Virus record (IMG/VR): IMGVR_UViG_3300048065_001187
Coordinates: 62,001 to 126,000 of that record
DNA length: 64,000 nt
Reading direction: 5' to 3' (one strand)
Source of the DNA: a virus
Part shown: positions 1 through 48,599 of the stretch, piece by piece
How the letters are laid out: every line of letters begins with the position of its first letter
How positions within the stretch are numbered: position 1 is the first letter of the stretch
The notes under the pieces: model-generated
The model's input: only the letters and a program-made list of their open reading frames with translations
Told to the model about the DNA's origin: nothing
The model's database searches: none
Program-made: the position numbers and the translations under genes

Positions 1-1
1 A

Positions 2-472: not shown

Positions 473-1154
473 TTTAATTATATTGACCACGGCGATTTGC
501 CGACCAGAATTGCAAACCGAATGCCTGAAAAGTTTTGCGGATGATTTACGCGATCAGGGTATTAGTGTCTTTTGGCGTATTAATATTGACCCAGCTCTTG
601 GCGATCAAGATGAAACAGCTGACAACTTTAAAAAAATTATTCATGATATTGATCACATTATCTCATTTCCACCTGAACCTTGTTTTTTTACTGCTGCGAA
701 TTATTTAATACAAGAAACACACCAAGAAGAACTTCAAGATTTAAATGACAACGGTTATATTATGTGGCTTGAAGATGATAAAAAACACGACATCAGTTTT
801 AATATACAAGAATTGATTGATAGTGATTATGATTATATTGGCTTCCATCCAAATCATCTTTTTGAATTTTCATTTCATCCGTCAATGTGGGGTAAGCAGT
901 TTTTCTCTGAGCATGTCTACGGACCATATATTCTAAATGATGGAAAGAAACAAGACCCCGAACAGCTTTTGATTGACTATCATCGCAATAGAAAAAAAGA
1001 AGACAGGGATCATTTTAAAAATGTTAAACGTGTTCATTTTAATGGAATATTTAATCATATCGGCAGAGAATGGAACGAGCAAAACAATGTAAAAAAATGG
1101 AATAAATCAAAACAAGATTCATCTATTAGTTATGAGAATATCCCACAAGCATAA
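465..1154 (+). CDS. Glycosyltransferase-like protein (GT-A type)
   Basis: A 229-residue cytoplasmic protein with no signal or membrane segment. It starts with a hydrophobic strand (YDLIILTTAICRPEL) and has an acidic MWLEDDK motif near residue 100, the usual position and form of the metal-binding DxD of GT-A fold enzymes. A C-terminal VKRVHFNGIFNHIGREW segment resembles the acceptor-side part of short phage glycosyltransferases. I cannot assign a CAZy family. It is embedded between a GT90-like gene and a sulfotransferase, overlapping both, so it probably acts on the same glycan. Confidence 0.55.
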   Translation: MYDLIILTTAICRPELQTECLKSFADDLRDQGISVFWRINIDPALGDQDETADNFKKIIHDIDHIISFPPEPCFFTAANYLIQETHQEELQDLNDNGYIMWLEDDKKHDISFNIQELIDSDYDYIGFHPNHLFEFSFHPSMWGKQFFSEHVYGPYILNDGKKQDPEQLLIDYHRNRKKEDRDHFKNVKRVHFNGIFNHIGREWNEQNNVKKWNKSKQDSSISYENIPQA

Positions 1155-1695
1155 ATTTGTTTTTATAGCCGTCCCTAAAACTGGCAGCACTTCAGTTAGG
1201 TCGATTATTGACCCATACAGTGATATAGTAAGTGTTAATGATAGAAATTCACCGTACAAACATCATACTACAGCACTAGACTTGAAAAAACATTTTGAAT
1301 CTGAAGGCTGGAATTGGGACGATTATTATAAATTTTCAGTAGTAAGAAATCCTTGGGAAAGACGAGTATCGTCATGGGCTTATAGACTCAAAAAAGGTCA
1401 GCATAACCATACCGAATTCAAAGATTTTGTTATGCATTACCCAGCAAACCCTCAAGTCAACTGGCTTTTTGATGAATCGGGTAATTCACTTATGGATTAC
1501 ATTTTTAAACTTGAAGATCTTGACGGCATGGATAAAGTTTTTGATGATTTAAATATTCCTAAAGTAAATTTACCGCACAAAAACAAAAACAATCACAAGC
1601 ATTATACTGAATATTACGACAACGAAGCCCGTGAAATGGTTGCAGAAAAATATGCTAAGGATATCGAGTATTTCGGATACGAATTCAAAGAATAA
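1132..1695 (+). CDS. PAPS-dependent sulfotransferase (Sulfotransfer_2-like)
   Basis: A 187-residue protein that would transfer sulfate from PAPS to a sugar or lipid hydroxyl. The 5'-phosphosulfate-binding loop is PKTGSTS at residues 15-21 and the 3'-phosphate-binding motif is RNPWERRVS at residues 72-80, in the order and spacing of the sulfotransferase family 2. The C-terminal MVAEKYAKDIEYFGYEF end recurs in the two other sulfotransferases of the cluster (starts 5454 and 9557), showing they are paralogues. There is no signal peptide, so it works in the cytoplasm. The start ATG overlaps the preceding gene by 23 bases. Acceptor unknown. Confidence 0.85.
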   Translation: MRISHKHKFVFIAVPKTGSTSVRSIIDPYSDIVSVNDRNSPYKHHTTALDLKKHFESEGWNWDDYYKFSVVRNPWERRVSSWAYRLKKGQHNHTEFKDFVMHYPANPQVNWLFDESGNSLMDYIFKLEDLDGMDKVFDDLNIPKVNLPHKNKNNHKHYTEYYDNEAREMVAEKYAKDIEYFGYEFKE

Positions 1696-1696
1696 A

Positions 1697-1705
1697 GTGT
1701 ACATC
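1697..1705 (+). promoter_or_regulatory. Class II promoter-like box (GTG-TACATC) before epimerase gene
   Basis: GTGTACATC ends 5 bases before the ATG at 1711. It matches the GTG-TAnnnT box seen before several other genes. No -35 hexamer is seen at the usual distance, so this is a motif-based guess. Confidence 0.4.
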
Positions 1706-1710
1706 AAGAT

Positions 1711-2700
1711 ATGAACATACTAATTACTGGAGTTGCGGGGCTCATCGGGAGCAGGTTAGCCGATTGGCTTCTTGAAAACATTTCAAATGCAACAATCATA
1801 GGAATTGATGACTTAAGTGGTGGTTACATAGAAAACCTTGATGAAAGAATTATTTTTTATCAAGCTAATTTACATGAAGATGATATCAATCAAATTTTTG
1901 AAAATCATAGTATAGATTATGTTTTTCATTTAGCGGCTTATGCAGCAGAAGGGTTAAGTCCTTTCATAAGAAAGTTTAATTATATGAACAATACAGTCTC
2001 TACTGCCGCAGTCATTAATTCATGCATCACTTATAATGTCAAAAGACTTGTATTTACTTCCTCATTAGCCGTATATGGCCATGGAGACGGAGGCATCTTT
2101 AAAGAAGAGCAGACTCCAGCTCCAATTGATCCATATGGTGTTGCAAAATATGCTTGCGAAATGGATATTAAAATCGCTGGCGAACAGCATGGACTGGATT
2201 GGTGTATTATCAGACCTCACAATGTATATGGCGCGAAGCAAAACATTTGGGACAGATACAGAAATGTTTTAGGTATTTGGATGTTTCAATATATACAAGG
2301 ATTACCAATGTCTATTTTTGGAGATGGAAGCCAGACACGAGCATTTAGCTGTGTTGATGACATTTTATCTCCATTATATAAAGCTGCAATTAATCCAGAA
2401 GCTTCAAAAGAAATAATTAATCTTGGTGGAGTAGAAGAGCATTCCATTAATGAAGCCAATAAAATTTTACTTGATATCATTAAAGATGGACAGTCTTCAT
2501 ACAAAGAATCTCGCCACGAAGTTAAACACTCTATACCTACATATCAAAAATCTGTAGATATCTTAGGCTTTGAACATACCGTTTCCCTGCAAGAAGGTTT
2601 ATCAAAAATGTGGGCATGGGCACAAACACAACCAGTGCGTGAAATTTTCAAATGGGAAAAATACGAGGTTGATAAAGGGATATATGATTTTTGGAAATGA
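1711..2700 (+). CDS. NAD-dependent sugar epimerase/dehydratase (extended SDR)
   Basis: A 329-residue extended short-chain dehydrogenase. The NAD-binding glycine motif GVAGLIG is at residues 7-13, the strand ending SSLAVYG is near 117-123, and the catalytic pair is Y142-x3-K146 (YGVAK). The family interconverts or dehydrates nucleotide sugars; the closest recognisable type is UDP-glucose 4-epimerase-like, but the substrate cannot be fixed. The C-terminal DGSQTRAFSCVDD segment is the usual sugar-binding region of this group. It would supply an activated sugar to the surrounding transferases. A 15-base gap with a promoter-like box precedes it, so it may start a transcription unit. Confidence 0.85.
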   Translation: MNILITGVAGLIGSRLADWLLENISNATIIGIDDLSGGYIENLDERIIFYQANLHEDDINQIFENHSIDYVFHLAAYAAEGLSPFIRKFNYMNNTVSTAAVINSCITYNVKRLVFTSSLAVYGHGDGGIFKEEQTPAPIDPYGVAKYACEMDIKIAGEQHGLDWCIIRPHNVYGAKQNIWDRYRNVLGIWMFQYIQGLPMSIFGDGSQTRAFSCVDDILSPLYKAAINPEASKEIINLGGVEEHSINEANKILLDIIKDGQSSYKESRHEVKHSIPTYQKSVDILGFEHTVSLQEGLSKMWAWAQTQPVREIFKWEKYEVDKGIYDFWK

Positions 2701-3314
2701 AAAGATATGATATAATTAATAGCTTTATATTAAAGCATAATCTGGCAAGATACCTAGAAATTGGTGTTTTCAAAGGTGAATGTATAGAAAAAATCAACAT
2801 TAAACATAAAGATGGTGTTGATCCTGGCCATGAAAACGAAATGCACCGCATGGTTAATCACAACACTACTTCTTGTTCGTTTTTCGCTGGTTTTTTTCAT
2901 GGCATGTCAGTTGAAAAATATGACATAATTTTTATAGATGGCTTGCATGAATCAGATCAGGTAGATAAAGACATAAAGAATTCCTTATTGTCAACAGCAG
3001 ATAACGGTTTTGTATTAATGCATGACTGCAGTCCTCCTACTAAAAAACATGCTCAAGTTCCTCGTGGATCTCAAGTCGATTGGATGGGGGATGTTTATAA
3101 ATCATTCCTGCGTTCAAGACTCATCAATCCACAGCATAAACATTTCGTAATTGATACTGACTGGGGTGTAGGTGTAATTTTAAAAAACCAACAAGACGAA
3201 AAACTCGACAAAGATTTCATTCAAAAAGGTATCGACTCTTGGGATTTCTTTTGCAAAAACAGGACCGAGTTACTTTCATTGATTTCTGTAGATGATTTTA
3301 AAAAGCATTATTAA
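2697..3314 (+). CDS. SAM-dependent methyltransferase (Methyltransf_24-like)
   Basis: I place the start at the ATG that overlaps the preceding TGA (ATGA); a TTG six bases earlier is in frame but less likely. The class I methyltransferase core is visible: motif I YLEIGVFKGECI near residue 20, and motif IV-like YDIIFIDGLHESDQV near residue 80, followed by LMHDCSPPT. This pattern is common in methyltransferases within polysaccharide clusters (Methyltransf_24 group), which O-methylate sugars. The methyl acceptor is unknown. A second gene of the same type is at 10150-10713. Confidence 0.75.
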   Translation: MKRYDIINSFILKHNLARYLEIGVFKGECIEKINIKHKDGVDPGHENEMHRMVNHNTTSCSFFAGFFHGMSVEKYDIIFIDGLHESDQVDKDIKNSLLSTADNGFVLMHDCSPPTKKHAQVPRGSQVDWMGDVYKSFLRSRLINPQHKHFVIDTDWGVGVILKNQQDEKLDKDFIQKGIDSWDFFCKNRTELLSLISVDDFKKHY

Positions 3315-4095
3315 TGACAGTTGGTTCTTATCAAATGGCTATATAGATTCGGATTCTTCTATAGATTTACTTGAGCAAAAATACATTCAGCATAATTTAT
3401 CTGTCTTAAAACGATTTAAGCATATTGCTGTAGCCACGACTTATTCTGATTTTTGTGATTCCCTGATCAAAAAGAATGAGGCTTTATGGAAAAACTACTT
3501 CCCAGATTGTCATGTAATTAATGTAGAAAAGAATCGAGGTCATGGCTTTGGAATTGCTGATAGCGAAAATGCATTAATTAATTTATGCAAATCAAAAGGT
3601 GGGAAATGGGCATTAAAAAGCTCAAATGATGTTATATTTAACGAGTCAATATTAGGCATTAATGTCCCTGATGTAGATTTTATTTATTTAAATGGATTCA
3701 AGGTAGAAGATTTAAAAACCTATAATTTTAATCATACAAGACACTATAATAATTATTTTTACCCGCAGACAAATTTTTATTTTATTCGTGCCGACAAAAT
3801 CGATTATTTATACAATGAAGATTATATCAATGAAACATATGAATATATCAAAACAATCAAGGATTATAACAATTGTACATGGGATTATATTGATGGATGG
3901 TCTTGTGAAAATTTCCTAAAACAATGTGTTGAAAGAAATAATCTTAAAAAACATTACTTACTAGACCTAGAATATCATATAAAATTGTGTAAATTTGTAA
4001 GAGAAAGACGAATACTTGACCCAGCTCATAAAAATATGATGATATCAGGTATTTGTCATTTTCAATTTCCAGAACAAAAAATCCACCAGATATGA
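3292..4095 (+). CDS. Glycosyltransferase-like protein of unknown family
   Basis: A 267-residue soluble protein. There is a KSSNDVIF segment near residue 110 that could be the DxD-like metal site of a GT-A enzyme, followed by a long YxxN-rich region. It overlaps the upstream methyltransferase by 23 bases and the downstream GT2 gene by the ATGA form. Function is inferred mainly from position among glycosyltransferases; I do not recognise a specific family. Confidence 0.4.
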   Translation: MILKSIINDSWFLSNGYIDSDSSIDLLEQKYIQHNLSVLKRFKHIAVATTYSDFCDSLIKKNEALWKNYFPDCHVINVEKNRGHGFGIADSENALINLCKSKGGKWALKSSNDVIFNESILGINVPDVDFIYLNGFKVEDLKTYNFNHTRHYNNYFYPQTNFYFIRADKIDYLYNEDYINETYEYIKTIKDYNNCTWDYIDGWSCENFLKQCVERNNLKKHYLLDLEYHIKLCKFVRERRILDPAHKNMMISGICHFQFPEQKIHQI

Positions 4096-4823
4096 AAGCC
4101 TCAGTAATATTATCATCTTTTAATAATTTGCCTGCATTAAAATTAAGCATTGAAACATTAAAGATTCAAACAGAAAAAGATTTTGAAATAATTATTTCCG
4201 ATGATGGTTCAACAGACGGAACTGTCGAATGGTTACAAGAAGAAAAAGTAAAGCACTTCACGAGACCGAACGAAGGTTATAGACTTGCATATATTTGGAA
4301 CAGGGGCGCAGATTTAGCGTCTGGGGATCGTTTTATATTTGGCAACTCTGATGTTATTTGGGGTCCTGATTTTGTGGCTGAGCATTTGAAATATGCTGAC
4401 AAATTAATTGCAGGGCTTTGCCTATCAATAGCAATTGATAATGTGCCACAAGTTACTCCTGAAAAAATACACCACGATTTCGACTTTATAGATTCACTTA
4501 AATATGGTGATCGCCGCCAAGACTTCATCGATAAACTTAAGCGCCCTTACTTGATTCACGAAAAACCAATACCACCTCGATATATGTATGGAGGCAATTG
4601 GTCTTGCCCTACTCATGTATTCAAACAGATTGAAGGGCTAGACGAAGGTTTCAAAGGTTGGGGTGGCGAAGATTTTGACTTTGCTAGGCGAGCAAAAAAT
4701 GCCGGCAATGAAATTATTATCAATACCAACTGTAAAGGTTATCACTTGGATCACGAAAAAGTCAATAGAGATAACACTCGATCAATAGGAAAAGGTTATT
4801 TTGATGAAAAGTGGAATTCTTAA
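4092..4823 (+). CDS. Family 2 glycosyltransferase
   Basis: The chosen ATG overlaps the preceding TGA; the alternative upstream TTG adds 13 residues lying inside the previous gene. The protein begins KASVILSSFNNLPAL, with SDDGSTDG at residues 36-43 (nucleotide-binding aspartates of GT2), a GNSDVIW segment near residue 88 in DxD position, and GWGGEDFDFARRA near residue 195, the ED-containing catalytic region typical of chondroitin-polymerase-like and galactosyltransferase-like GT2 enzymes. It is a soluble, inverting-type transferase; donor and acceptor unknown. Confidence 0.85.
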   Translation: MKASVILSSFNNLPALKLSIETLKIQTEKDFEIIISDDGSTDGTVEWLQEEKVKHFTRPNEGYRLAYIWNRGADLASGDRFIFGNSDVIWGPDFVAEHLKYADKLIAGLCLSIAIDNVPQVTPEKIHHDFDFIDSLKYGDRRQDFIDKLKRPYLIHEKPIPPRYMYGGNWSCPTHVFKQIEGLDEGFKGWGGEDFDFARRAKNAGNEIIINTNCKGYHLDHEKVNRDNTRSIGKGYFDEKWNS

Positions 4824-5457
4824 AGTTTTTGTATGCTGCCAAAAGTATATTCATCGAGTCGAAGACATAAAAGCTCGAGTTAAAAAATGGAACCTTGGGG
4901 ATTATTTAATATTTACTGGTGGAGAAGAAGAAAAAGGATTAGAAGAAAACGTTATTCAATTAAAGTGCCGCGATTTATATGAAGACCTTCCAGAAAAAAT
5001 GTTTGCTATTTATAAATATTTGGCGGACAATAATTATCCAGAAAAATATAATCATTTTTGGAAAATAGATGATGATGTTGATTGGTTAAGGTGGAACGAG
5101 GGAAGGGAAGTCGATCTTCTAAAATCTCTTGATGGTTACGATTACGCAGGCTTTCAGATCAAAACAAAAGAAGGTAAAAGAGGGTGGCATATAGGTAGGG
5201 TGCGAGAAGATTCCCCTTGGTGTAATAAAAGATACGATGGGATATATGTAGATTGGGCGGCAGGAGGATCAACTTATTTCTTGAGCGGTAAATCCATTGG
5301 CAAGTTTAAAGGACTCGAAGGTATTAATGAAATTAGAGAAAGTGAAATATACGAAGATTTAGCTATCGCAAAGTTTCTTAGGAAATTTGATATATTCCCG
5401 GCGGAAATCAACCCTTGGCCAGACAAGCGAGTACTAAGATTAGACATTAACAAATGA
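4804..5457 (+). CDS. Galactosyltransferase-like (GT31-like) protein
   Basis: The TTG-ATG at 4801-4806 makes the ATG at 4804 the likely start. The 217-residue protein has FWKIDDDVDW with the DDD at residues 89-91, then GGSTYFLSG and a later EIYEDLAIAKFL segment. The order DDD, GG-x-Y-x-LS and ED-D/V-x-x-G is that of GT31 beta-galactosyltransferases, but without their usual membrane anchor. It overlaps its upstream neighbour by 20 bases and the next sulfotransferase by ATGA, so the two are probably translated together. Confidence 0.65.
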   Translation: MKSGILKVFVCCQKYIHRVEDIKARVKKWNLGDYLIFTGGEEEKGLEENVIQLKCRDLYEDLPEKMFAIYKYLADNNYPEKYNHFWKIDDDVDWLRWNEGREVDLLKSLDGYDYAGFQIKTKEGKRGWHIGRVREDSPWCNKRYDGIYVDWAAGGSTYFLSGKSIGKFKGLEGINEIRESEIYEDLAIAKFLRKFDIFPAEINPWPDKRVLRLDINK

Positions 5458-6026
5458 TCAACCATCAATATAAATGTATATTTATACATGTTGTTAAAAC
5501 AGGCGGGATTTCTGTTTGCAAGGCCTTAAACATGCAAGACAAACAGCTTCATATTTCAGCATCAGAAGCTAAATCTACCACAAAAAACAAATGGAATAAC
5601 TATTTTACTTTCTCGTTCACCAGAAACCCTTGGGACAAGATGGTTTCCCAATATTTTTACAACGGCCAATGTTACACAAGAGATTTTAACGAATATATCG
5701 AGCGTTGGTACAATGACAAAGAATTTATCACAAGTTACAGTTGTGTGCATAGTGACTATTTTGATATTGATCTTGATTTTATTGGTAGGTTTGAAAATCT
5801 TCAAGAAGATTTCGATTTTGTCTGCAAAAAGATTAAAAAGCCATCATGCACTTTACCTCATGAAAATTCTCAACCAATAACTTCTGGACCAAATGGAGAA
5901 AAAGTTTTCCCTAAACCAAAAGAGATACATTATTCTAAGCTTTATAATCAGGACTCAATAGATATGGTCGCTGAAAAATTCTCCAAAGATATTAAATTAT
6001 TTAATTATGAGTTTAATCAAAGTTAA
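5454..6026 (+). CDS. PAPS-dependent sulfotransferase (second copy)
   Basis: A 190-residue paralogue of the sulfotransferase at 1132-1695. The phosphosulfate loop is VKTGGIS at residues 14-20 and the 3'-phosphate site is RNPWDKMVS at residues 57-65. The C-terminal MVAEKFSKDIKLFNYEF end is shared with the other copies. In the loop the usual Pro before Lys is Val. The start codon overlaps the preceding stop as ATGA. It would sulfate a cytoplasmic glycan or lipid intermediate. Confidence 0.85.
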   Translation: MINHQYKCIFIHVVKTGGISVCKALNMQDKQLHISASEAKSTTKNKWNNYFTFSFTRNPWDKMVSQYFYNGQCYTRDFNEYIERWYNDKEFITSYSCVHSDYFDIDLDFIGRFENLQEDFDFVCKKIKKPSCTLPHENSQPITSGPNGEKVFPKPKEIHYSKLYNQDSIDMVAEKFSKDIKLFNYEFNQS

Positions 6027-6798
6027 AAACAAAAGAAGGGGCGGCAATTTATTTCATTTTGCACATTTTATGTGTGATTGCGTTTTCCCTGAAGTTCTCT
6101 CTGGTATACCTGAGCATGACCATGTTTTTAGAATAAAAAATTTAGATCAAACATTGGGTAACTTTGAAAAAATGTATGAAAGCATATTCAATTCTAAAAA
6201 CATGGAAGTAGATCAAACAGCATTTGATAAAATTGAATGCGAAGAAAAAGTCATTGAAAGATTGCCCTCTCATAACAATATAGAAGATTTTAAAAAATTT
6301 ATTGATTTCGTTTTTAGCTCTTTGGATATTGACAAAGCCCCCGATCCTTCTTATCCCGAAGTACTTTTGATTAAAAGAGGAGAAAGAGTAGAGCTAATTT
6401 CTGATTCATATTTAAAAAAACAAAATAAAAATGCAACAAATGGTAAAGAGCGGCGTGAAATCAAAAACATTGATAAAGTAGAAAATATGTTGCATGAAAA
6501 ATATAAAGATAAATTTGGTTCTGTTGTTCTAGAAAATATGGATCTTAAAGATCAAATCATGCATTTTTATCATGCGAAAATTATCGTGTGCGCCCATGGA
6601 GCTTGCATGGCTAATTTATTTTTTTGTCAGCCTGAAACTCTGGTTATCGAAGTCAATGCGCGGACTCCACAAGACAAAAGAATCGGGGCGGGAGTTTATC
6701 CATTTTTTGATACGATTTGCGATGTATTAAATTTAAATCAACATAAGATTGATAGGCACAATGGTTTTAATTTATTGAAGTATATAAATTCTTTATAA
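6007..6798 (+). CDS. GT61-like glycosyltransferase (DUF563)
   Basis: A 263-residue protein. The diagnostic segment is CAHGACMANLFF near residues 195-206 followed by QPETLVIEV, which corresponds to the HGAGLANLLF...TTVIEL signature of GT61 (plant xylosyltransferases, EOGT). A basic ERREIKN stretch near residue 148 would contact the nucleotide sugar. There is no signal or membrane anchor, unlike eukaryotic members. It overlaps the preceding sulfotransferase by 20 bases. Confidence 0.8.
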   Translation: MSLIKVKNKRRGGNLFHFAHFMCDCVFPEVLSGIPEHDHVFRIKNLDQTLGNFEKMYESIFNSKNMEVDQTAFDKIECEEKVIERLPSHNNIEDFKKFIDFVFSSLDIDKAPDPSYPEVLLIKRGERVELISDSYLKKQNKNATNGKERREIKNIDKVENMLHEKYKDKFGSVVLENMDLKDQIMHFYHAKIIVCAHGACMANLFFCQPETLVIEVNARTPQDKRIGAGVYPFFDTICDVLNLNQHKIDRHNGFNLLKYINSL

Positions 6799-6800
6799 TT

Positions 6801-8186
6801 ATGAGTCGAAAACCAAATGTAATAATTATTCATACCGATGAACATAATCTAAGAACTTTAGGTTGTTATCGAGACTTAATGACAGAAAATCAAGCGTTTC
6901 AGTTCGGTAAAGATGTCAAAGTCGATACCCCAAATATTGATTTTCTTGCTAAAAACGGATGTCTTTTTAATAATTTCATAACTCCATATCCTATATGCCA
7001 ACCTTCCCGTGCTACATTTTTTACTGGTCGCCATTATGACAATGTAATCAATGCTGGGACTGAATGGCAGTCGCAACATTTAAAAAGTAATATAAAAACC
7101 TTTGCTCATTTTTTCAAAAATGCTGGGTATTCAACAAATTACGTAGGGAAATGGCACTTAAATGGAATGAAATCGCCTGACTGGGGAACCTCTCCTAATT
7201 TCGGCTTCGACCATAATCGCTATATGTATAATCGAGGTCATTTTAAAATTGTTGAAGAAACTGGGGATAACATCAGCACTTTTAATTGGGATCCTGATTT
7301 AGCAAATAATAAAAATTACACGACAGATTGGCTTTCAAATAAAGCCATACAAATTATAGAATCTAATAAAACAAAACCATTTTTATTGACTTTATGTATC
7401 CCTGATCCTCATGATCCAAATGTAGTTCGAGAACCTTATAATTCAATGTTTAATAATCTTGTTTTTGATCTACCTCGTACAATGAGGAAATCAGTGAACA
7501 AACCTATGGATCAGCCTTTATGGGTAAAAAATGGCGAATGCGCCAATAAATGGCGTCCAGAATCCATCAAAAAATATTTTGGAATGGTTAAGTGTATTGA
7601 TGATAACGTAGGTAAGATAATTTCTTGCCTCAAAAATATTAATTTGCTTGATAATACAATTTTGGTTTTCACTTCGGATCATGGAGATTTGCTTTACGAA
7701 CATAGATGCCTCAACAAATCATTGCCTTATGATTGCTCTATTAGAGTTCCCATGATTATTTATTATCCCAATAAAATATCGAGCAAAGTGGTAAACACGC
7801 CACACTCAATGCCAGATTTCACTCCAACTGTTCTTGATTTATGCGGAGTAGATTATCAAAAACAATCATTTCACGGCTCAAGTTTTAGTAGTGATATTTT
7901 ATGTTCGGATAAAACCATAGAGAGAGATCGGATAGTTTACAGTAGAACCTGGAACTGGATTGCTATTATTAAAAATTCATTAAAATTAGTTATTTCCATA
8001 GATGATGACCCTTGGCTCTTTGATCAAAAAGTAGACCCTGATGAATTGATTAATTTCTATAATACGAACTCTTACAAAGAGCATATTAAAGAAATGATTA
8101 CAGAAGGTCATTTTCAGCTTAATAAGTATGAACTTAATTATGCTAAACACTCTGATCTTGCATATAAGCTTGAATCCTATCTGTAG
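6801..8186 (+). CDS. Cysteine-type (formylglycine) sulfatase
   Basis: A 461-residue type I sulfatase that hydrolyses sulfate esters. The activation motif is C66-Q-P-S-R70 followed by ATFFTG, so the catalytic residue is the cysteine that must be oxidised to formylglycine. The second family signature GYSTNYVGKWH is at residues 109-119, and the metal-binding SDHGD is at 292-296; an HTDEH near residue 11 supplies N-terminal metal ligands. No signal peptide is present, whereas most bacterial polysaccharide sulfatases are exported. No maturation enzyme (FGE or anSME) is visible here, so host maturation is needed. It lies between GT61- and GT25-like genes. Confidence 0.9.
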   Translation: MSRKPNVIIIHTDEHNLRTLGCYRDLMTENQAFQFGKDVKVDTPNIDFLAKNGCLFNNFITPYPICQPSRATFFTGRHYDNVINAGTEWQSQHLKSNIKTFAHFFKNAGYSTNYVGKWHLNGMKSPDWGTSPNFGFDHNRYMYNRGHFKIVEETGDNISTFNWDPDLANNKNYTTDWLSNKAIQIIESNKTKPFLLTLCIPDPHDPNVVREPYNSMFNNLVFDLPRTMRKSVNKPMDQPLWVKNGECANKWRPESIKKYFGMVKCIDDNVGKIISCLKNINLLDNTILVFTSDHGDLLYEHRCLNKSLPYDCSIRVPMIIYYPNKISSKVVNTPHSMPDFTPTVLDLCGVDYQKQSFHGSSFSSDILCSDKTIERDRIVYSRTWNWIAIIKNSLKLVISIDDDPWLFDQKVDPDELINFYNTNSYKEHIKEMITEGHFQLNKYELNYAKHSDLAYKLESYL

Positions 8187-8187
8187 A

Positions 8188-8955
8188 ATGAACTTTAAAT
8201 CCTACATGATAACATTCACGAAAGACCCTCGTCGTTTTTCCAATTTTAACGATGTTAAATCTAAATTAAATGGATTGGAATTATTTGAGGCCGCAAATGC
8301 TATTGATTATTATGATATTTTAGAATCAATGGATAGAAAATTTAAATTTCATACCAAAAAATATTTAGACGAATGGAATTGGCTTCCAGGAAAACTTGGC
8401 TGCAATTTATCTTGGTTATTATTATTTAAAAAGATACAATTAAATTACTCTTTTAATCCTGACTTCCCTAAATGGTTTTTAATAGTTGAAGATGATACCG
8501 AATTATTAGAGGAGAATATTGAGGATAAGATTTCGGGCATTATTGAACAAGCAGAAGCTTTGGATAGTTATTTTGTAAAATTTTTAGTTGGCACTGGGAA
8601 AGAAAAATTAAAAAATGGAATCGTTAAATTTTCTCCAGACATTCAGTTCTCAGAGCAGCATCATATAAAAGATAATTTTTATAAACTTATTCCGTCGTGG
8701 GGCAACTGGGCTCAGATATTTCGCATAGAAGCTGTCGAAGCTATTTTATCTGTGATTCCATGGGATGATCATTTAGATTTATTGTTGATGGATTCTCCAG
8801 TGTTTGAAAAGTTAAACGGGGTCGCTTACAAACAAAGCTTTTTCACATATAGTGGCGCAACAAGATTAGAGGAAGCAGACAAGAATTTCGGAAGCTTAAT
8901 ATACAAAAATTCAACTACAGGAAAGGTTGATTGGAGAAAGTTGACAAGATTATGA
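8188..8955 (+). CDS. GT25-like glycosyltransferase
   Basis: I start at the ATG directly after the sulfatase stop; a longer version starts inside the sulfatase gene. The 255-residue protein has GKLGCNLSWLLLF at residues 68-80 and then FLIVEDDTEL with EDD at 101-103, the order seen in GT25 (LPS beta-galactosyltransferases and collagen-type transferases). The later SWGNWAQIFR segment fits the G-x-x-AY region of that family in degenerate form. Sugar specificity cannot be read. Confidence 0.7.
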   Translation: MNFKSYMITFTKDPRRFSNFNDVKSKLNGLELFEAANAIDYYDILESMDRKFKFHTKKYLDEWNWLPGKLGCNLSWLLLFKKIQLNYSFNPDFPKWFLIVEDDTELLEENIEDKISGIIEQAEALDSYFVKFLVGTGKEKLKNGIVKFSPDIQFSEQHHIKDNFYKLIPSWGNWAQIFRIEAVEAILSVIPWDDHLDLLLMDSPVFEKLNGVAYKQSFFTYSGATRLEEADKNFGSLIYKNSTTGKVDWRKLTRL

Positions 8956-9560
8956 CTAAATTTATCTCCTTAGGCTCAAGTTGCTGTGTCAAGCACCATA
9001 TTGATCTTTTCTGCGGAAAAAGTGCAACTCTTCCATTTGACTGGGTAGTTATTGACTTTAAATCTGTGCTAGATCTAATCAGTTGCAGTAACCCTGAAAA
9101 TGTATTTAGCATAGACAATTTGGTTAATTCATCCAAAATTAATCCAGACCTTAAATATGTTTATAGCATTAAAAATTTAAGCCTCTATGAATTTTATCAT
9201 GACTTAAAAGAAGGATCGAGCAAAGAAGATATAATAAACTTTACTCAAAAATACCAAAGAAGATATCATAGATTGATCGATATTATTTCAACTGTTAATG
9301 ATATTTGCTTTATCCACCACGGAAGTTATAACCAAAATGATATTGATGAATTTTGCGAAAAGATTCGACTGATTAATCCTAAACTCGATTTTAAAGTTAT
9401 TATTATTGATAAAGAAAATTCAGTTAATAATTATTCTTGCGATCACACAATTTGTGTTCGAGAAAATTCATTTATAAAATCACAACCCAGCCAAGACGAA
9501 CACTGGTGGAAATTCAATCACATTGATTGGGTTAAAATATTTAATTTGTACTCAAAATGA
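8952..9560 (+). CDS. DUF1796-like papain-like cysteine peptidase family protein
   Basis: The ATG overlapping the previous TGA is taken as the start. The N-terminus FISLGSSCCVKHHI followed by LPFDWVVIDF matches the DUF1796 pattern (ISLG-x-x-C ... PFDW), a family described as putative papain-like cysteine peptidases and often found in polysaccharide clusters of bacteria and viruses. Candidate catalytic Cys residues lie in the SSCC segment and a candidate His in ICFIHHGSY near the middle. Whether it is a peptidase or an acyl/sugar transferase is not known. Confidence 0.6.
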   Translation: MTKFISLGSSCCVKHHIDLFCGKSATLPFDWVVIDFKSVLDLISCSNPENVFSIDNLVNSSKINPDLKYVYSIKNLSLYEFYHDLKEGSSKEDIINFTQKYQRRYHRLIDIISTVNDICFIHHGSYNQNDIDEFCEKIRLINPKLDFKVIIIDKENSVNNYSCDHTICVRENSFIKSQPSQDEHWWKFNHIDWVKIFNLYSK

Positions 9561-10147
9561 TATCTCACGATTTAAAATGCGTTTTCGTTCATATACCGAA
9601 ATGTGCAGGCACTTCAGTTTATAAAAGTTTAAAATTAGACTTCTTAGGTTCAGGACATGCTCCAGCATCAAAACATTCTGAGTTTTTAAACCAAGGTTAT
9701 TTTTCTTTTTCTTTTGTTCGCAATCCATGGGATCGTATAGCTTCTTGCTATCGTTATTTTAAATCCATGAACCCTGGGGGCAGATGGTACAAAGGCAATC
9801 AAAAGCTTGCTGATTTAGCTAAGCAAATTTCTTTCGATGAATTCGTGAGAAGAGTTCCAGAGTTTCAGAAGATGATGATTAGAGAAGAAGGTTCTGTTCG
9901 TTCTGGAATTCACCTTCAGCCATTCTCCTATTTCCTGGATCAAGAAATTGATTATATTGGTAAAATGGAAAATATTAATCGTGACTATATTAAAATTTGC
10001 CGCCACTTAAATATCAGAATTAGACCCCTCAAAAGAGTCAACACTACTAATTCTTCGAATTATCAAGAATTATATATAGAAGAAACAAAGAATATCGTGT
10101 ATAATATATATCAAGAAGATATAAAAAAATACAATTACGAATTTTAA
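9557..10147 (+). CDS. PAPS-dependent sulfotransferase (third copy)
   Basis: A 196-residue sulfotransferase with the canonical loop PKCAGTS at residues 14-20 and RNPWDRIAS at residues 55-63. The end IYQEDIKKYNYEF corresponds to the shared C-terminus of the other two copies. It is ATGA-coupled to the DUF1796 gene. Three diverged paralogues within 9 kb suggest different acceptor positions rather than simple dosage, but that is inference. Confidence 0.87.
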   Translation: MISHDLKCVFVHIPKCAGTSVYKSLKLDFLGSGHAPASKHSEFLNQGYFSFSFVRNPWDRIASCYRYFKSMNPGGRWYKGNQKLADLAKQISFDEFVRRVPEFQKMMIREEGSVRSGIHLQPFSYFLDQEIDYIGKMENINRDYIKICRHLNIRIRPLKRVNTTNSSNYQELYIEETKNIVYNIYQEDIKKYNYEF

Positions 10148-10149
10148 TT

Positions 10150-10713
10150 ATGGAACCATATCAATTTGACAAAGGGTCTGCAAGGTTATCATTACTTGAC
10201 AAAATTAATGAAGGTGATATTTGCGCAGAGATAGGAGTTTTAAAAGGCGACTATGCTAATCTAATTTCTTTACAGCCAATTTCAAAATTGTACCTTATAG
10301 ATCCTTGGGTTAGTATAGCAGATGTTCCTAATCGCTGGCATGCAGTTATGCAAGAAGAAATGGATAGTTACAAGACTAGCGTGGTTAACCGATTTTCAGA
10401 TAACGATAAAGTTCAAGTTATTGAAAAATATTCTGCGGATACGGTTTCTGATTTTGAAGATTATTACATGGATTGGATATACTTAGACGCTAATCATAGT
10501 TATGATTTTGTAAAACAAGATTTGAACAACTGGTGGGCTAAATTAAAATCAAATGGATATTTTTGCGGGAATGCATACACAGATAGCCCTATCGCAAGAA
10601 ATGTTTTAGACTTTGGTGTCATTCCTGCGGTTGATAATTTCCTGGAAGATAAATTTGAAGAAATAAATCATTTCGAAGTTATTGATTCTCAGTATATAAT
10701 TCAAAAAAAATAG
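10150..10713 (+). CDS. SAM-dependent methyltransferase (Methyltransf_24-like)
   Basis: A 187-residue class I methyltransferase. Motif I is ICAEIGVLKGDYANL near residue 25, the acidic end of the next strand is LYLIDPW near 48, and motif IV is MDWIYLDANHSYDFVKQDL near residue 110. The ANHSYDFV segment (D-x-x-H-x-Y) is typical of the Methyltransf_24 group in glycan gene clusters. It starts 3 bases after the sulfotransferase stop. Acceptor unknown. Confidence 0.8.
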   Translation: MEPYQFDKGSARLSLLDKINEGDICAEIGVLKGDYANLISLQPISKLYLIDPWVSIADVPNRWHAVMQEEMDSYKTSVVNRFSDNDKVQVIEKYSADTVSDFEDYYMDWIYLDANHSYDFVKQDLNNWWAKLKSNGYFCGNAYTDSPIARNVLDFGVIPAVDNFLEDKFEEINHFEVIDSQYIIQKK

Positions 10714-10719
10714 CTCTCA

Positions 10720-11553
10720 ATGAAAAGGATGGAGGACATTCTTCTTTTATTCAACGAAAGCTTTTTCAGTAATCAAGGCATCGTATCAGTTGCATGCGAA
10801 GACGATATTCCGGATAGAGATTCAATTCTCTTTATCGGTAGTCACAGGCACACATTTAATTTAAAACATTTAACGAAATACCTCGAAGTTATCGAATCAC
10901 GTCCTTTTACTTATTCAATAATTTGCGGAAAAACAGATGGCTGTTTAAATAAAAATATCGATATACCAAAAAACGTCAAAAGAATTTATTGCAATAATAT
11001 TAATTATGCTCACGATGTGATAAAATTTTTTCCTATGGGTAGAGATTTTAGAGCCAGAGACTCTTTCCATAAAAACGACAAACCAAGAAAGCGAGATATT
11101 TTAGTTTATGGTAATTTTTCATTAAATACAAGCTGGATAAGAAAAGCTATTTATTTGTTTACAAAAGACAATCCCATGTATACTCTTGAAAATATTGGCT
11201 CAAGAGGAACAAGAGGAGAAAAACGTTCTTGGTTTATGTCTAATGATCAATTTTTTAATAGATTGCGAAGCAGTAAATTTGTAATGTGTCCGCGAGGAAC
11301 GGCACCTGATTCTTTCAGGTTTTATGACACTCTTTATTGCGGTGCAATTCCTATTGTCGTTAAAGACTCGATGTACGATCAATTTGATCACTCAGAGTTA
11401 CCAATTCTTTTCCTGGATCATCAAAAAGATTATCAAAAAATTAGTGAAGATTTTTTAAATGAGCAATATAATATATTATCTCAAAAAATAAAACCTTATT
11501 ATAAAACATTAGATTTCAATCATTGGATAAAAAGAATTAAATTAGAATTATGA
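10720..11553 (+). CDS. Exostosin-like (GT47-like) glycosyltransferase
   Basis: A 277-residue protein whose C-terminal half carries KFVMCPRG at about residues 186-193, then PDSFRFYDTLYCGAIPIVV (to about 214). CPRG-x-x-x-DS-x-R-x-(Y/W)-(D/E)-x-L-x-x-G-x-IPV is the nucleotide-sugar-binding core of exostosin/GT47 enzymes, which in eukaryotes build heparan-type chains and plant xyloglucans. The protein is shorter than eukaryotic exostosins and has no membrane anchor. A second ATG nine bases later is possible. Confidence 0.7.
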   Translation: MKRMEDILLLFNESFFSNQGIVSVACEDDIPDRDSILFIGSHRHTFNLKHLTKYLEVIESRPFTYSIICGKTDGCLNKNIDIPKNVKRIYCNNINYAHDVIKFFPMGRDFRARDSFHKNDKPRKRDILVYGNFSLNTSWIRKAIYLFTKDNPMYTLENIGSRGTRGEKRSWFMSNDQFFNRLRSSKFVMCPRGTAPDSFRFYDTLYCGAIPIVVKDSMYDQFDHSELPILFLDHQKDYQKISEDFLNEQYNILSQKIKPYYKTLDFNHWIKRIKLEL

Positions 11554-12542
11554 AAATATTAGTTGGAGGAGCAGGCGGCTTTATAGCCGGTTATTTAGTT
11601 AAAGATTTATTGGCACAAGGGCATGAAGTTATCGCCGCCGACATTAAGCCCGCAGATATGTGGTATCAGACGTTTGATGGTGCAGAAAATCATGCGGATT
11701 GTAATCTGCAAGAAAAAGATCATTGTTACAAATTAAGTGTCGGTGCTGATCGCATCTACAATCTTGCCTGCAATATGGGCGGCATGGGGTTTGTTGAAAA
11801 CAATCAAGCTCTTTGCATGGAGAACGTTCTTATTCAGACTCACATGATGATGGCTGCGAGAGACAATGGTGTCAAAGAAGTTTTATATAGCTCAACTGCT
11901 TGTGTTTATCCAGCCGCAATTCAATCTGAAATTAAAGACGAATCATCTCAGGCACTTAAAGAATCTGATGTATTTCCAGCTAATCCAGATGATGGATATG
12001 GTTGGGAAAAATTATTTAGTGAATTGATTACTTATTATTACGGAAAAGATTTTGGTATTGATTCACGCACTTGTCGCTACCATAATGTTTATGGGCCATT
12101 TGGAACATGGCGTGGTGGTCGTGAAAAAGCTCCTGCTGCAATTTGTCGCAAAGTTATAGAGGCTAAGATGAGCGGCAAGCATGAAATTGAAATCTGGGGT
12201 GATGGCGAACAAACTCGCTCGTTTATGTTTATTGACGACTGTATCACTGGCATGGAATTGATGTGGCAAAAGGGTGACTCTCGCCCACTCAACCTTGGAA
12301 GTGATCGTATGGTTTCCATCAATCAGCTTGTTAATATTGTAGAAAATATCGGCGGCATTAAATTAAAAAGAAACTACAATTTGAATGCCCCACAAGGTGT
12401 TCGTGGTCGTAACAGCGATAACACGATGATTAAAGAAGTGTTAGGCTGGGCACCATCGATCACTCTTGAAGATGGACTTGAAAAAACATACGAGTGGATT
12501 TATAATCAAATGCAGAACTGTAAAGATTCTGATGGATATTAA
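11550..12542 (+). CDS. GDP-mannose 3,5-epimerase-like NAD-dependent epimerase
   Basis: A 330-residue extended SDR. The NAD site GGAGGFIAG is at residues 6-14; NLACNMGGMGFVENN at 71-85 matches the unusual M-G-G-M-G-F signature of GDP-mannose 3',5'-epimerases; SSTACVYP at 114-121 holds the Cys (C118) used as catalytic acid/base in that family; YGWEK at 150-154 holds the Tyr-Lys pair. The DGEQTRSFMFIDDC segment near 215 is also typical. It would make GDP-L-galactose or a related sugar for the cluster. It is ATGA-coupled to the exostosin-like gene and closes the glycan cluster. Confidence 0.82.
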   Translation: MKILVGGAGGFIAGYLVKDLLAQGHEVIAADIKPADMWYQTFDGAENHADCNLQEKDHCYKLSVGADRIYNLACNMGGMGFVENNQALCMENVLIQTHMMMAARDNGVKEVLYSSTACVYPAAIQSEIKDESSQALKESDVFPANPDDGYGWEKLFSELITYYYGKDFGIDSRTCRYHNVYGPFGTWRGGREKAPAAICRKVIEAKMSGKHEIEIWGDGEQTRSFMFIDDCITGMELMWQKGDSRPLNLGSDRMVSINQLVNIVENIGGIKLKRNYNLNAPQGVRGRNSDNTMIKEVLGWAPSITLEDGLEKTYEWIYNQMQNCKDSDGY

Positions 12543-44642: not shown

Positions 44643-44894
44643 ATGTCAGATAAAAAAGAAAATACAGAGTGGAATGATCGCGAGATCGGTGCATTATGGG
44701 TAAACGTAAAGCAAGGCAGTAATGACAAGTACCTAACGGGGCAAGTCAATGGAGAAAAGGTCATCATGTTTAAAAACAAGTACAAGGATGATAATCCTAA
44801 GGCTCCAGATTTCCGTATGTACAAGCAAAAAGATCAAGAAGGAGCTACCAAGTCTGCTCAAAAACAAGAAGAACCTGAAGTAGATCTTATCTAA
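44643..44894 (+). CDS. Small DUF736-like protein
   Basis: An 83-residue soluble protein. EIGALWVNVKQGSNDKYLTGQVNGEKVIMFKNKYK then PDFRMYK resembles the short DUF736-type proteins found in phages and mobile elements (A-L-W ... YLTG ... F-x-N ... P-D-x-R-x-x). TATAAT at 44634-44639 lies 3 bases before the ATG, without a clear -35. Function unknown. Confidence 0.55.
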   Translation: MSDKKENTEWNDREIGALWVNVKQGSNDKYLTGQVNGEKVIMFKNKYKDDNPKAPDFRMYKQKDQEGATKSAQKQEEPEVDLI

Positions 44895-46015
44895 TGAACA
44901 ATAAGTACGGATTAGTTTGTGTTTCTAAAATCCTACAAGAAGAAGATAAATCAAATTCTTTTGTAGGCATCACTAGAAAAGCTTATGCTGAGCTTGCGTC
45001 AGAAAAAGGCGATCAAGAAGCAAAGAAAAAACTGAAAGATGAAATCCTTCATAATCTAAACTTAACTGTAAAGATTATAGATTTCTGCCGTACTAATAAT
45101 ATTGATCACTATAGATTAAATACTTCTATCTTTGGCATCATAGCAGATCCTTCCTTTGATTTATCTGTCAATGATTTACCTCAGCGTGAAGATGTTCTTG
45201 ATGCAATCAAAGAGATAGGAAGAACTTCTATTACAAAAGGGGTATCTTTATCCATTCAGCCTGATAAATTTTGTAAGCTGATAGACGATGACGATGGTGT
45301 TGTAGAGAAATCAATCAAGGAGTTAAATTTCTACTCTTGGTTTCTTGATGAAATCGGAACGCAGGAGAATATTTCTGCTCCGATCCATCTGCATCTAAAC
45401 TCTCAGCCTGAAAAACAAGATCATGATTCTTACTGTGATTTCACTGATAGGTTTTATGAGAATTTTAAGGAACTTGATTCAGGAGCTCAGCGGCGTTTAG
45501 TTTTAAAGAATGCTGACCATGGTGTTTGGAGTGCGTTTAATTTATTTAAATATTTGCATGTCTATTGTTTTGAAGAACACGATTTTGGATTTCCTTTGGC
45601 ATACAATAATTTATTTGATTCCTTAAACCCATCTAAAATAGATAACTCAGTTGTCGATCAACAGATAAATGTAGGAGCATTTCACGAAACATGGAGCGGT
45701 GTTGTTCCTGTTTTTACTTGGACTGAATCTAAAAGTGCAGATCAACCAAGGGCATTTGCCCCTGAGCTTTCTGCTCATATTCCTGACTTTGGTTATCAAA
45801 TCAAATGGGAAGTAGATGTCACTGACAAGGACATAGCTATACTAAAATTATTCTCTGAAGAAGGTCCAAGCAGAATTTCTGAAGAGGCTCTTCGTAAGAT
45901 TACTCGTGGAAGATATCAAAAAGTAACCAACAACTATAATGCACTATATGAAGCGGCGAGACAAGTCAACATTGTTGCTGAAAACAATGACGATCAAATA
46001 GTTGGCGGACAATAA
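44894..46015 (+). CDS. uvsE: UV damage endonuclease UvdE-like
   Basis: A 373-residue protein. KYGLVCVSKIL at the start, HNLNLTVKIIDFCRTNNIDHYRLNTSIF near residues 53-78, SLSIQPDKFCKL near 117 and RRLVLKNADHG near 197 follow the order of motifs in UvdE, a TIM-barrel metal-dependent endonuclease that nicks 5' of UV photoproducts (S-M-H-P-x-Q-F and R-L-x-L-E-N-D-D in bacteria). The H of SMHP is replaced by Q (IQP) and LEN by LKN, so metal binding differs from the standard and activity is uncertain. One-base overlap with the preceding gene (TAATG). Confidence 0.75.
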   Translation: MNNKYGLVCVSKILQEEDKSNSFVGITRKAYAELASEKGDQEAKKKLKDEILHNLNLTVKIIDFCRTNNIDHYRLNTSIFGIIADPSFDLSVNDLPQREDVLDAIKEIGRTSITKGVSLSIQPDKFCKLIDDDDGVVEKSIKELNFYSWFLDEIGTQENISAPIHLHLNSQPEKQDHDSYCDFTDRFYENFKELDSGAQRRLVLKNADHGVWSAFNLFKYLHVYCFEEHDFGFPLAYNNLFDSLNPSKIDNSVVDQQINVGAFHETWSGVVPVFTWTESKSADQPRAFAPELSAHIPDFGYQIKWEVDVTDKDIAILKLFSEEGPSRISEEALRKITRGRYQKVTNNYNALYEAARQVNIVAENNDDQIVGGQ

Positions 46016-46442: not shown

Positions 46443-47723
46443 ATGAATACAAACGAATTAAACAGAAGAGAATTTATTGCTAGAGCCGCCAAATCTTATT
46501 TGGGGGTAGGGCTAATGCCTTTGGTTGGGTCTTACATTCACGATAACGCATATGCCCTCACCCCGGGCACTCGCCCTGCAAAAGCACGGCATGTCATTTA
46601 CTTGAATATGGCTGGAGCAATGTCGCATCTAGACACCCTTGACCCCAAGCCTCAAAGCCCCGATGTTCAAGGTCCAGTTGAAGCTATACAAACAAGTGTT
46701 GATGATTTATTTCTTTCTGAAAACTTACCTACAGTTGCTAGGCATATGCATAATGCCGCCATTGTTCGTTCAGTAACCAGTAATCAAGGTGCACATGAAC
46801 AGGCTAGCTATCTTATGCATACAAGCTATCAAAAACGCGGCACAATTGTACATCCAACCTTTGGTAGCTGGGTTTCAAAACTTTCCGGCTCTATCAACAG
46901 AACTATTCCTGCGAATGTAAAGATCGGTGGGGGAGGAGGCGGAGCTGGCTTCTTAGAATCTCGCTACGGAGCTTTACCTCTTAGAAATCCTAAAGCAGGG
47001 TTAGCTAACAGCTCAATGGCTGACTATTTAGACAGCACACAATTTAATGATAGAATAAAAGCTGCGGAACAATTAAATGCAGTATTTAGCGAGCAATATA
47101 ATCAAAAACAAATTCGTGCTTATACTGATTTATATAAAGATGCAGTTAAATTAATGCAGAGTGAAGATTTAAAGGCATTTGATATTTCTGCTGAGCCAGA
47201 AGCTGTGACTGAATTATACGGAGACAGTAACTTTGGTCAGGGATGCTTGCTTGCAAGAAGATTGATTGAGAATAAAGTTCGGTATGTTGAAGTAACTCGC
47301 GGGGGATGGGATACACATGATAACAATTTTGATCGCGTGGCTGCTAATTGTGCAGATATTGATAAAGCATTAGGTGCATTACTTTTTGATTTAGAAATTC
47401 GTGGACTACTTAATGAAACCTTAGTTGTTCTTACATCTGAATTTGGGCGCACTCCTAAAATCAATCCAAGAGATGGTAGAGATCATTGGCCAAAAGCTTT
47501 CTCTGCTTTCTTTGCTGGTGGAGCAGTAAAAGGCGGCACAATATATGGTCAGAGCGATGATAAAGGTATGGAAGTTGCGGAAAACCCTGTAAAACCTGAG
47601 GATTTAAATGCAACAATAGCTTATGCATTAGGGTTATCGCTTAACGACATTCATTACTCTCCCTCTGGAAGACCTTTTCAAATTGCACACAAAGGTCAAC
47701 CAATTCTAGATATATTAGCATAA
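46443..47723 (+). CDS. DUF1501 family protein with Tat signal
   Basis: A 426-residue protein with a twin-arginine start (NRREFIARAAKSYLGVGLMPLVG), so export to the periplasm by Tat is expected. HVIYLNMAGAMSHLDTLDPKP, GGWDTHDNNF, LVVLTSEFGRTPKIN and RDGRDHWPKAFSAFFAGGAVKGG are the DUF1501 signatures; the family belongs to the alkaline phosphatase/sulfatase-like fold and keeps Asp and His residues typical of metal sites. It is abundant in Planctomycetes and Verrucomicrobia and rare in phages as far as I know. It starts only 8 bases after the tmRNA CCA with no promoter between. Role in the phage unknown. Confidence 0.88.
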   Translation: MNTNELNRREFIARAAKSYLGVGLMPLVGSYIHDNAYALTPGTRPAKARHVIYLNMAGAMSHLDTLDPKPQSPDVQGPVEAIQTSVDDLFLSENLPTVARHMHNAAIVRSVTSNQGAHEQASYLMHTSYQKRGTIVHPTFGSWVSKLSGSINRTIPANVKIGGGGGGAGFLESRYGALPLRNPKAGLANSSMADYLDSTQFNDRIKAAEQLNAVFSEQYNQKQIRAYTDLYKDAVKLMQSEDLKAFDISAEPEAVTELYGDSNFGQGCLLARRLIENKVRYVEVTRGGWDTHDNNFDRVAANCADIDKALGALLFDLEIRGLLNETLVVLTSEFGRTPKINPRDGRDHWPKAFSAFFAGGAVKGGTIYGQSDDKGMEVAENPVKPEDLNATIAYALGLSLNDIHYSPSGRPFQIAHKGQPILDILA

Positions 47724-47792: not shown

Positions 47793-48599
47793 TTATTCAG
47801 GGCGTTTACCTAAAGGTTTTCCGTCTTGACCAATTTCACCAGCTCTAATTTTAGTCGCCGATACCTCTTGAAGCTCTTTACTTAACTCAAGTTGCTCAAT
47901 ATTGTAGCCTACGCCCCTTCCATAAAACACATCTGTAATATTAGGAAGTTCAACTACTTTTATTTTATTCCCAAATTCAGAACATGCTGCATGTATTTCT
48001 GCTTTTACTTTTTCAAAATCATAAGGATTCTTTTCGTCTATACCAGCAACATCTCTTAATGCTATACAGCATTGCCCTGTTCTTTTGATTGATTCTGCTA
48101 CCAAAGTTTTGTGTCCAATATGAAACGGTTGATATCTACCTATGAGTAGTGCTGTTGGTGCTTGATTATCCCATGCTTCTGTCTCATTTAATTTATCCAT
48201 AACTTTATCTGCCCAATCGTCTGCATTGCCATCAGTCAATCTAATATCGTAGTTCAGGGGACGTTCAAACATTTTATTAGTATCTTCGTATCTACCTTCC
48301 ATGATTCTATCAACCCATATTGTGAAGTCAGCCCCAAAAGCTTGCCTTGTTTCTTGCGTCGGGCAAACGAAGTCGGCAATTACATATCCTCCACCTAATT
48401 TAGCCCAATCGCAAAGCTTTCCCATTCTTGTGGCATGCTTTATTCTATCTTCTGAGGAAAACCCTAGCTCAGAATATATGTCCTGCCTAACAGCATCTGC
48501 ATTAAACCATGCGGCGTTTAACTTGTGAACCAATATTTCGGCAAGTGTTGTTTTGCCGGAACCAGGTAGACCCATAATTAAAATTTTTCTCTTAGTCAT
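47793..48599 (-). CDS. cysC: APS kinase (CysC-like) fused to HIGH-motif nucleotidyltransferase
   Basis: A 268-residue two-domain protein. The N-terminal domain has Walker A GLPGSGKT at residues 10-17, FNADAVRQD at 32-40 and LGFSSEDR at 45-52; the last is a hallmark of adenylylsulfate (APS) kinase, which makes PAPS. The C-terminal domain (from about 148) has LLIGRYQPFHIGH with HIGH at 160-163 and SATKIR near 250, the motifs of small nucleotidyltransferases. Such a domain could form APS from ATP and sulfate, or act on another substrate; a full ATP sulfurylase is much longer. Lone minus-strand gene in this area. Activities are inferred. Confidence 0.8.
   Translation of the reverse strand: MTKRKILIMGLPGSGKTTLAEILVHKLNAAWFNADAVRQDIYSELGFSSEDRIKHATRMGKLCDWAKLGGGYVIADFVCPTQETRQAFGADFTIWVDRIMEGRYEDTNKMFERPLNYDIRLTDGNADDWADKVMDKLNETEAWDNQAPTALLIGRYQPFHIGHKTLVAESIKRTGQCCIALRDVAGIDEKNPYDFEKVKAEIHAACSEFGNKIKVVELPNITDVFYGRGVGYNIEQLELSKELQEVSATKIRAGEIGQDGKPLGKRPE

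Follow-up and report, generated by a model that had tools for sequence, protein, structure and literature searches.

We analysed 64,000 nucleotides (positions 62,001 to 126,000, hereafter the window) of the IMG/VR virus record IMGVR_UViG_3300048065_001187, a record of 150,766 bases with phage-type genes. A gene of this marine phage, at positions 47793-48599 of the window, codes for an APS-kinase-like domain and, after it, a small nucleotidyltransferase domain of the HIGH type (NT). This fusion protein is probably a compact bifunctional synthase of 3'-phosphoadenosine 5'-phosphosulfate (PAPS) with a non-orthologous ATP sulfurylase part derived from the nicotinamide mononucleotide (NMN) adenylyltransferase NadM; the reactions of the two domains, their product and what it is used for are inferred. 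Sulfate activation begins with ATP sulfurylase. The C-terminal NT, a derivative of the NadM branch that would have taken over this task, would convert ATP and sulfate to adenosine 5'-phosphosulfate (APS) and pyrophosphate. The N-terminal kinase would phosphorylate the 3'-OH of APS, yielding PAPS for sulfotransferases. The product would feed the seven sulfotransferases of the phage itself; the acceptor of the sulfate is a guess, most likely a surface polysaccharide, or other molecules. We further lean towards the view that this new ATP sulfurylase of about 110 residues and its APS kinase form the sole PAPS system of SAR86 and of many SAR11 bacteria, and are borne by marine phages to supply phage sulfotransferases.

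The gene on the minus strand is intact, with an ATG start and 268 codons, and the opposite (plus) strand is riddled with stops over the same interval. A scan of IMG/VR revealed 146 confirmed relatives, of which 80 were kept, and five cultured phages carry a gene of about 40 % identity. An alignment of 18 diverse family members had 36 invariant positions. Given the viral relatives, the cultured phages and the invariant positions, the frame has not arisen by chance. Pfam assigned residues 6-87 to APS_kinase (E 2e-12, 47.7 bits, cut-off 21.1) and residues 152-176 to the start of a CTP_transf_like domain (E 1e-4, 22.9 bits, cut-off 21), which confirmed the order kinase first, nucleotidyltransferase second given in an original prediction from the DNA sequence. 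The motif positions in that prediction, Walker A, LGFSSEDR, a literal HIGH at residues 160-163 and SATKIR, were all correct (Table 1). The full-length protein corresponds to PHROG 10255, 'kinase' (E 8e-53), and its AlphaFold2 model had a mean pLDDT of 83. Among the matches listed when bacterial and archaeal genomes were scanned, several assemblies of alphaproteobacteria and of Pelagibacteraceae and a contig of one Halobacteriovorax metagenome-assembled genome had the fusion, and SAR11 and SAR86 chromosomes carried kinase and NT as two adjacent genes. Haloarchaeal plasmids have the fused form, annotated as 'adenylyl-sulfate kinase'.

The haloarchaeal fusions link the NT to a recognised APS kinase. 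Their kinase scored 154.7 bits on the NCBIfam equivalog apsK, above the cut-off of 138.7, and matched known APS kinases at E 1.6e-35. It has kept the complete lid and the Asn of the APS kinases and is joined in the same order to the same NT. The three haloarchaeal loci opened had the gene order sulfotransferase, APS kinase-NT fusion, YqcI/YcgG-family gene. A kinase of curated grade fused to this NT, with a sulfotransferase upstream, thus supports PAPS synthesis. The haloarchaeal NT copies were 76-100 % alike over nine records; with this likeness, the locus may be one spreading cassette.

A second line of support comes from marine bacteria. In 107 genomes of the SAR86 family, the pair of kinase and NT genes was present in 92 and Sulfotransfer_3 in 101; neither CysD nor the ATP sulfurylase family PF01747 was found in any of the 107, and CysN was not searched across all of them. 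A set of 36 SAR11 and SAR86 genomes chosen for carrying the pair contained PF01747 in two, Sulfotransfer_3 in 19 and CysD in none. Their CysN-like matches fell far short of the curated cut-off, which is the result that elongation factors would give. In 41 genomes chosen for carrying the family, PF01747 was detected in three (two of them SAR11), CysD in five (neither SAR11 nor SAR86 among them) and Sulfotransfer_3 in 24. The SAR86 and SAR11 sulfotransferases that were examined bear the 5'-PAPS motif, e.g., GLPRSGST. As sulfotransferases are present and CysD and PF01747 are absent or nearly so, we could find no candidate PAPS source other than the pair in the SAR86 and SAR11 genomes searched. 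Both the SAR86 survey and the scarcity of known ATP sulfurylases in the pair-bearing set argue for the compact synthase.

In phages, the fusion is accompanied by sulfotransferase genes. PF03567 had seven matches in the whole record, three of them in the window. Over 21 recA-like-positive records, the mean number of PF03567 genes per contig was 5.1 with the fusion and 1.9 without (Mann-Whitney, p 0.009), a surplus that is in line with PAPS supply by the fusion. In one phage type, represented by four near-identical loci (L052, L054-L056), a sulfotransferase gene follows the fusion directly. A gene for inorganic pyrophosphatase was located at most two genes from the fusion in five phage loci of differing arrangement; such a neighbour would pull the ATP sulfurylase reaction forward, and its presence supports the proposed function. 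Phage DLP_6 combines the fusion and a sulfotransferase with a separate NadM-Nudix gene and an annotated NAMPT. Thus the fusion is unlikely to be the NMN adenylyltransferase (NMNAT) of DLP_6, and this gene content is a further argument for the PAPS synthase.

The residues of the two domains are consistent with these contexts. In the alignment, Asp-35, Arg-38, Phe-47 and Arg-52 of the kinase were invariant in the family and matched identical residues in E. coli CysC; in the structures of APS kinases, these residues take part in APS binding. The 50 listed PDB matches in a Foldseek search with the whole model were chains of APS kinases and PAPS synthases, with a few chains of T4 polynucleotide kinase. 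A profile of 37 NT domains retrieved NadM NMN adenylyltransferases at the top (best E 7.5e-10), and NadR and phosphopantetheine adenylyltransferase (PPAT) more weakly. The model of the NT domain had a pLDDT of 85.6 and a fold like those of NMNAT, PPAT and pantothenate synthetase; among the listed PDB matches the highest template modeling (TM) score was 0.72 (NMNAT 1ej2), and none reached E 0.001. An alignment with five NadM proteins showed GRxQPxHxGH, NPF and ISxTxxR in common. A Trp-bearing segment, which serves the NMN side in NadM, was present in all five NadMs and in no aligned NT sequence, and much of the following region is also gone. In the tree, the NT domains, including the haloarchaeal ones, were separated from six NadMs with a support of 98/94, on long branches. 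The kept APS-site Asp, Phe and two Arg in the kinase and the missing Trp segment in the NT support the PAPS synthase. A smaller acceptor side, together with the arginines newly fixed in the NT, would be suited to a small anion like sulfate, and Arg-182 is a candidate sulfate-binding residue. The YGRGVGY motif takes the place of the Trp-bearing segment of NadM; it appears as YGRDVGY in many relatives and as IGRDVGY in haloarchaea.

The compact PAPS synthase had already been suggested in the original prediction. It became the best-supported reading through the sulfotransferase neighbours, the curated-grade haloarchaeal APS kinase-NT and SAR86 genomes without another ATP sulfurylase found, whereas the lineage of the NT is of the NMNAT/PPAT type. 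A grouping of the C-terminal domain with NMNAT, combined with inactivity on sulfate, had been named as a refutation; the grouping was found in sequence and predicted fold, and it does not by itself decide the activity. A kinase acting on a nucleoside instead of APS had been named as another: the APS-site Arg, Phe and Arg are kept, but most of the lid is lost. The fusion is filed in none of the families APS kinase, ATP sulfurylase and NadM, since one defining feature of each was tested and found lacking. On the NMNAT models, the window protein scored 24-33 bits for bifunctional NMNAT/Nudix (cut-offs 397-418) and 20.7 bits for arch_NMN_Atrans (cut-off 181.2), and PF01747 was not among the Pfam matches shown for it.

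Several observations weigh against the PAPS synthase. By sequence, the nearest relatives of the NT family are NMN adenylyltransferases of the NadM type rather than ATP sulfurylase, and ATP sulfurylase was absent from the listed matches of the NT profile search and of the fold search with the domain model. The ATP sulfurylase motifs QxRNxxHxxH and GRDxAG are not in the fusion protein; only HxGH and GR(D) are common. The window kinase reached 43.1 bits on apsK, below the cut-off of 138.7. In alignments, the lid RDxKGxYxxARxGxIxxFTG was mostly deleted in the kinases of phages, SAR11, SAR86 and Rhodospirillaceae, and complete in haloarchaea; the Asn after the second Arg in E. coli CysC is replaced by His or Gln in the non-haloarchaeal kinases. 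With these changes, the substrate of the phage and SAR kinases may have changed. In the phages, presence or absence of PF03567 in recA-positive contigs did not differ significantly (9/10 with the fusion, 7/11 without, Fisher p 0.18), and the phage sulfotransferase counts used a single sulfotransferase family, PF03567, out of several. In phage Bhz60, which carries the fusion, no sulfotransferase was detected by profile in the 50 of 56.5 kb searched. In SAR86, pair and sulfotransferase occurred together in 88 genomes, the sulfotransferase alone in 13, the pair alone in four and neither in two; both are near-universal, so their co-occurrence has no test power. The pair in SAR86 and SAR11 lies beside methyltransferase or DmdA-like genes, not beside sulfotransferases. 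In SAR86, it is part of an operon-like run of a methyltransferase-like gene (365-367 amino acids, no Pfam match), kinase and NT, with a divergent DmdA/GcvT-like gene nearby (L187, L188, L191, L193, L195). The SAR11 neighbours include DmdA-like and MetF-like genes, genes for a Rieske oxygenase or methyltransferase, and enoyl-CoA hydratase. PAPS synthesis does not explain these neighbours. Finally, most of the genomes and contigs surveyed are incomplete.

The deleted lid, the replaced Asn and the methyltransferase and DmdA-like neighbours in SAR86 and SAR11 would also fit the activation of another group. The NT would couple a small acid or a phosphate compound to a nucleotide, and a 3'-phosphate added by the kinase would yield a PAPS-like donor for enzymes of the sulfotransferase fold. 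The APS-kinase-like cytidine-diphosphoramidate kinase in the capsule pathway of Campylobacter is an analogue. We consider this unlikely in view of the haloarchaeal fusion, which combines a full APS kinase, lid included, with the same NT, and of the ordinary PAPS motifs in the SAR86 and SAR11 sulfotransferases examined.

Less likely still is an APS kinase with a C-terminal domain that binds or senses nucleotides and lacks ATP sulfurylase activity, with APS coming from host enzymes. Kinase-only relatives do exist: on a Rhodoferax plasmid, the start of such a gene overlaps the very end of a sulfotransferase gene, and Rhizobium and Cupriavidus plasmids have sulfotransferase genes near theirs. Several fusion-bearing alphaproteobacterial genomes also have CysDN-like genes that fit this explanation. 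The HIGH-type catalytic motifs, invariant or nearly so, speak against a sensing domain, as do the SAR86 genomes searched, where neither CysD nor PF01747 was found for the APS supply.

NAD salvage, with a kinase phosphorylating nicotinamide riboside and an NT adenylylating NMN to NAD, would be an arrangement like NadR with swapped domains. The profile relationship to NadM and the predicted fold (TM 0.72 to 1ej2) point in this direction. So does a NADAR-domain gene that overlaps the fusion gene in Sanovirus phages, in Bhz60 (L249 15056-15499) at the start of the fusion; relatives of Bhz60 carry an equally large gene at this place. However, the NT is without the Trp-bearing segment of the five NadMs and splits from NadM in the tree (98/94), and the kinase is APS-kinase-like, in haloarchaea to the degree that it passes the apsK cut-off. 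The neighbouring genes included no relative of either of two nicotinate phosphoribosyltransferase queries, whereas such genes do adjoin real NadMs, and in DLP_6 a genuine NadM and an annotated NAMPT are already present. In view of the domain alignment, the fusion in haloarchaea and the gene content of DLP_6, NAD salvage was set aside as the most improbable of these three. A CoA-synthase-like protein (PPAT and dephospho-CoA kinase) was dropped because the kinase is APS-kinase-like.

Table 1. Features of the fusion gene and sulfotransferase genes in the window (residue numbers refer to the fusion protein)
Feature	Position	Strand	Basis
Whole fusion gene, APS-kinase-like domain and small HIGH-type NT	47793..48599	-	open frame, 268 aa
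Kinase domain, residues 4-140	48180..48590	-	Pfam APS_kinase; Foldseek
Walker A GLPGSGKT, residues 10-17	48549..48572	-	G10, L11, P12, G13, G15, K16 invariant in family
LGFSSEDR, residues 45-52	48444..48467	-	Phe-47, Arg-52 at APS-site positions; aligns with E. coli CysC LGFSDADR
NT domain, residues 148-255, about 110 residues	47835..48158	-	profile match to NadM NMNAT structures; domain model
GRYQPFHIGH, nucleotide-binding motif, residues 154-163	48111..48140	-	G154, R155, Q157, P158, H160, G162, H163 invariant
Arg-182 Asp-183	48051..48056	-	Arg fixed in alignment A1; Gly in NadM
YGRGVGY, residues 226-232	47904..47924	-	Y226, G227, R228, V230, G231, Y232 invariant in alignment A1
SATKIR, residues 247-252 (ISxTxxR motif of HIGH nucleotidyltransferases)	47844..47861	-	family alignments
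Sulfotransferase (Sulfotransfer_2), proposed product user	1132..1695	+	PF03567 E 3.4e-13; PAPS-binding motifs VPKTGSTS, VVRNPWERR
Second sulfotransferase, proposed product user	5454..6026	+	PF03567 E 4.7e-10
Third sulfotransferase, proposed product user	9557..10147	+	PF03567 E 3.5e-12

The proposed compact synthase shares with the bifunctional PAPS synthases (human PAPSS1/2; Aquifex SAT/APS kinase 2gks) an APS kinase joined to an adenylyltransferase, in human PAPSS also with the kinase first. The second domain of the fusion, however, has about 110 residues and belongs to the NadM/PPAT-like HIGH family instead of ATP sulfurylase, and the kinase lid is shortened. NadM (MJ0541 1f9a, MTH 1ej2, NadM-Nudix 2qjt) has the three aligned motifs and the predicted fold in common with the NT, whereas Arg-182 and GR(D/G)VGY, the missing Trp segment and the fusion to or pairing with an APS-kinase-like gene are particular to the NT family. 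The fusion kinase is like CysC in Walker A and the four APS-site positions; the phage and SAR kinases differ in the short lid, in His or Gln for Asn and in scoring below the apsK cut-off, which the haloarchaeal form passes. With the ATP sulfurylase Sat (PF01747) the NT would share the proposed reaction; HxGH is alike, and a GRD ahead of the SxTxxR helix recalls GRDxAG, but a sequence relation is not detectable and the QxRNxxH signature is lacking. CysDN, the other type of ATP sulfurylase, has an unrelated fold. PHROG 10255 represents the same family over the full length, but is named only 'kinase', with no function or partner domain described.

To our knowledge, Sat and CysDN are the only established types of ATP sulfurylase. 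If the fusion is a PAPS synthase, a third, minimal type would explain the PAPS supply in sulfotransferase-bearing SAR86 and SAR11, which showed almost no known ATP sulfurylase in the genomes searched. Some phages would carry their own sulfation supply, and a viral 'cysC' called from a kinase match may be a two-domain enzyme for sulfation, not for sulfur assimilation. No such enzyme was described in the open-access papers searched, which dealt with fusions of APS kinase, cysC in phages, sulfotransferases of SAR86 and SAR11 and novel ATP sulfurylases; subscription papers and preprints are outside this scope. The mention of PAPS in one phage paper concerns PAPS reductase (PMC10434257).

The first part of the window (1-12542) resembles a surface-polysaccharide region, with glycosyltransferase-like genes, NAD-dependent epimerases, the three sulfotransferases and a sulfatase (PF00884, 6801-8186). 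With sulfotransferases and a sulfatase, the phage may attach sulfate as well as remove it. A DUF1501 protein gene (46443-47723, E 2.5e-111) is arranged tail-to-tail with the fusion, and several related contigs have a relative of it next to the fusion. A gene for a UV endonuclease of the UvdE type is located at 44894-46015 (PF03851, E 6.9e-19). In another locus, the gene upstream of the fusion (L072 5034-5996) ends in a degenerate second kinase copy of 26 % identity, and its N-terminal region is without Pfam match. In some loci of phages and Pelagibacteraceae, the fusion has radical SAM genes nearby, and some of these include a B12-binding domain (L050 4424-5995; L096 344-1510, 3876-5492). The DmdA-like gene near the SAR11 pair was 33 % identical to that of SAR86 (SAR11 locus L104 5637-7995). 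The Gram-positive host label of 'Clavibacter phage 33' (OR548257.1) looks odd: this phage is classified in Salvovirus together with a Xanthomonas phage, and its fusion is a close relative of that in a Stenotrophomonas phage.
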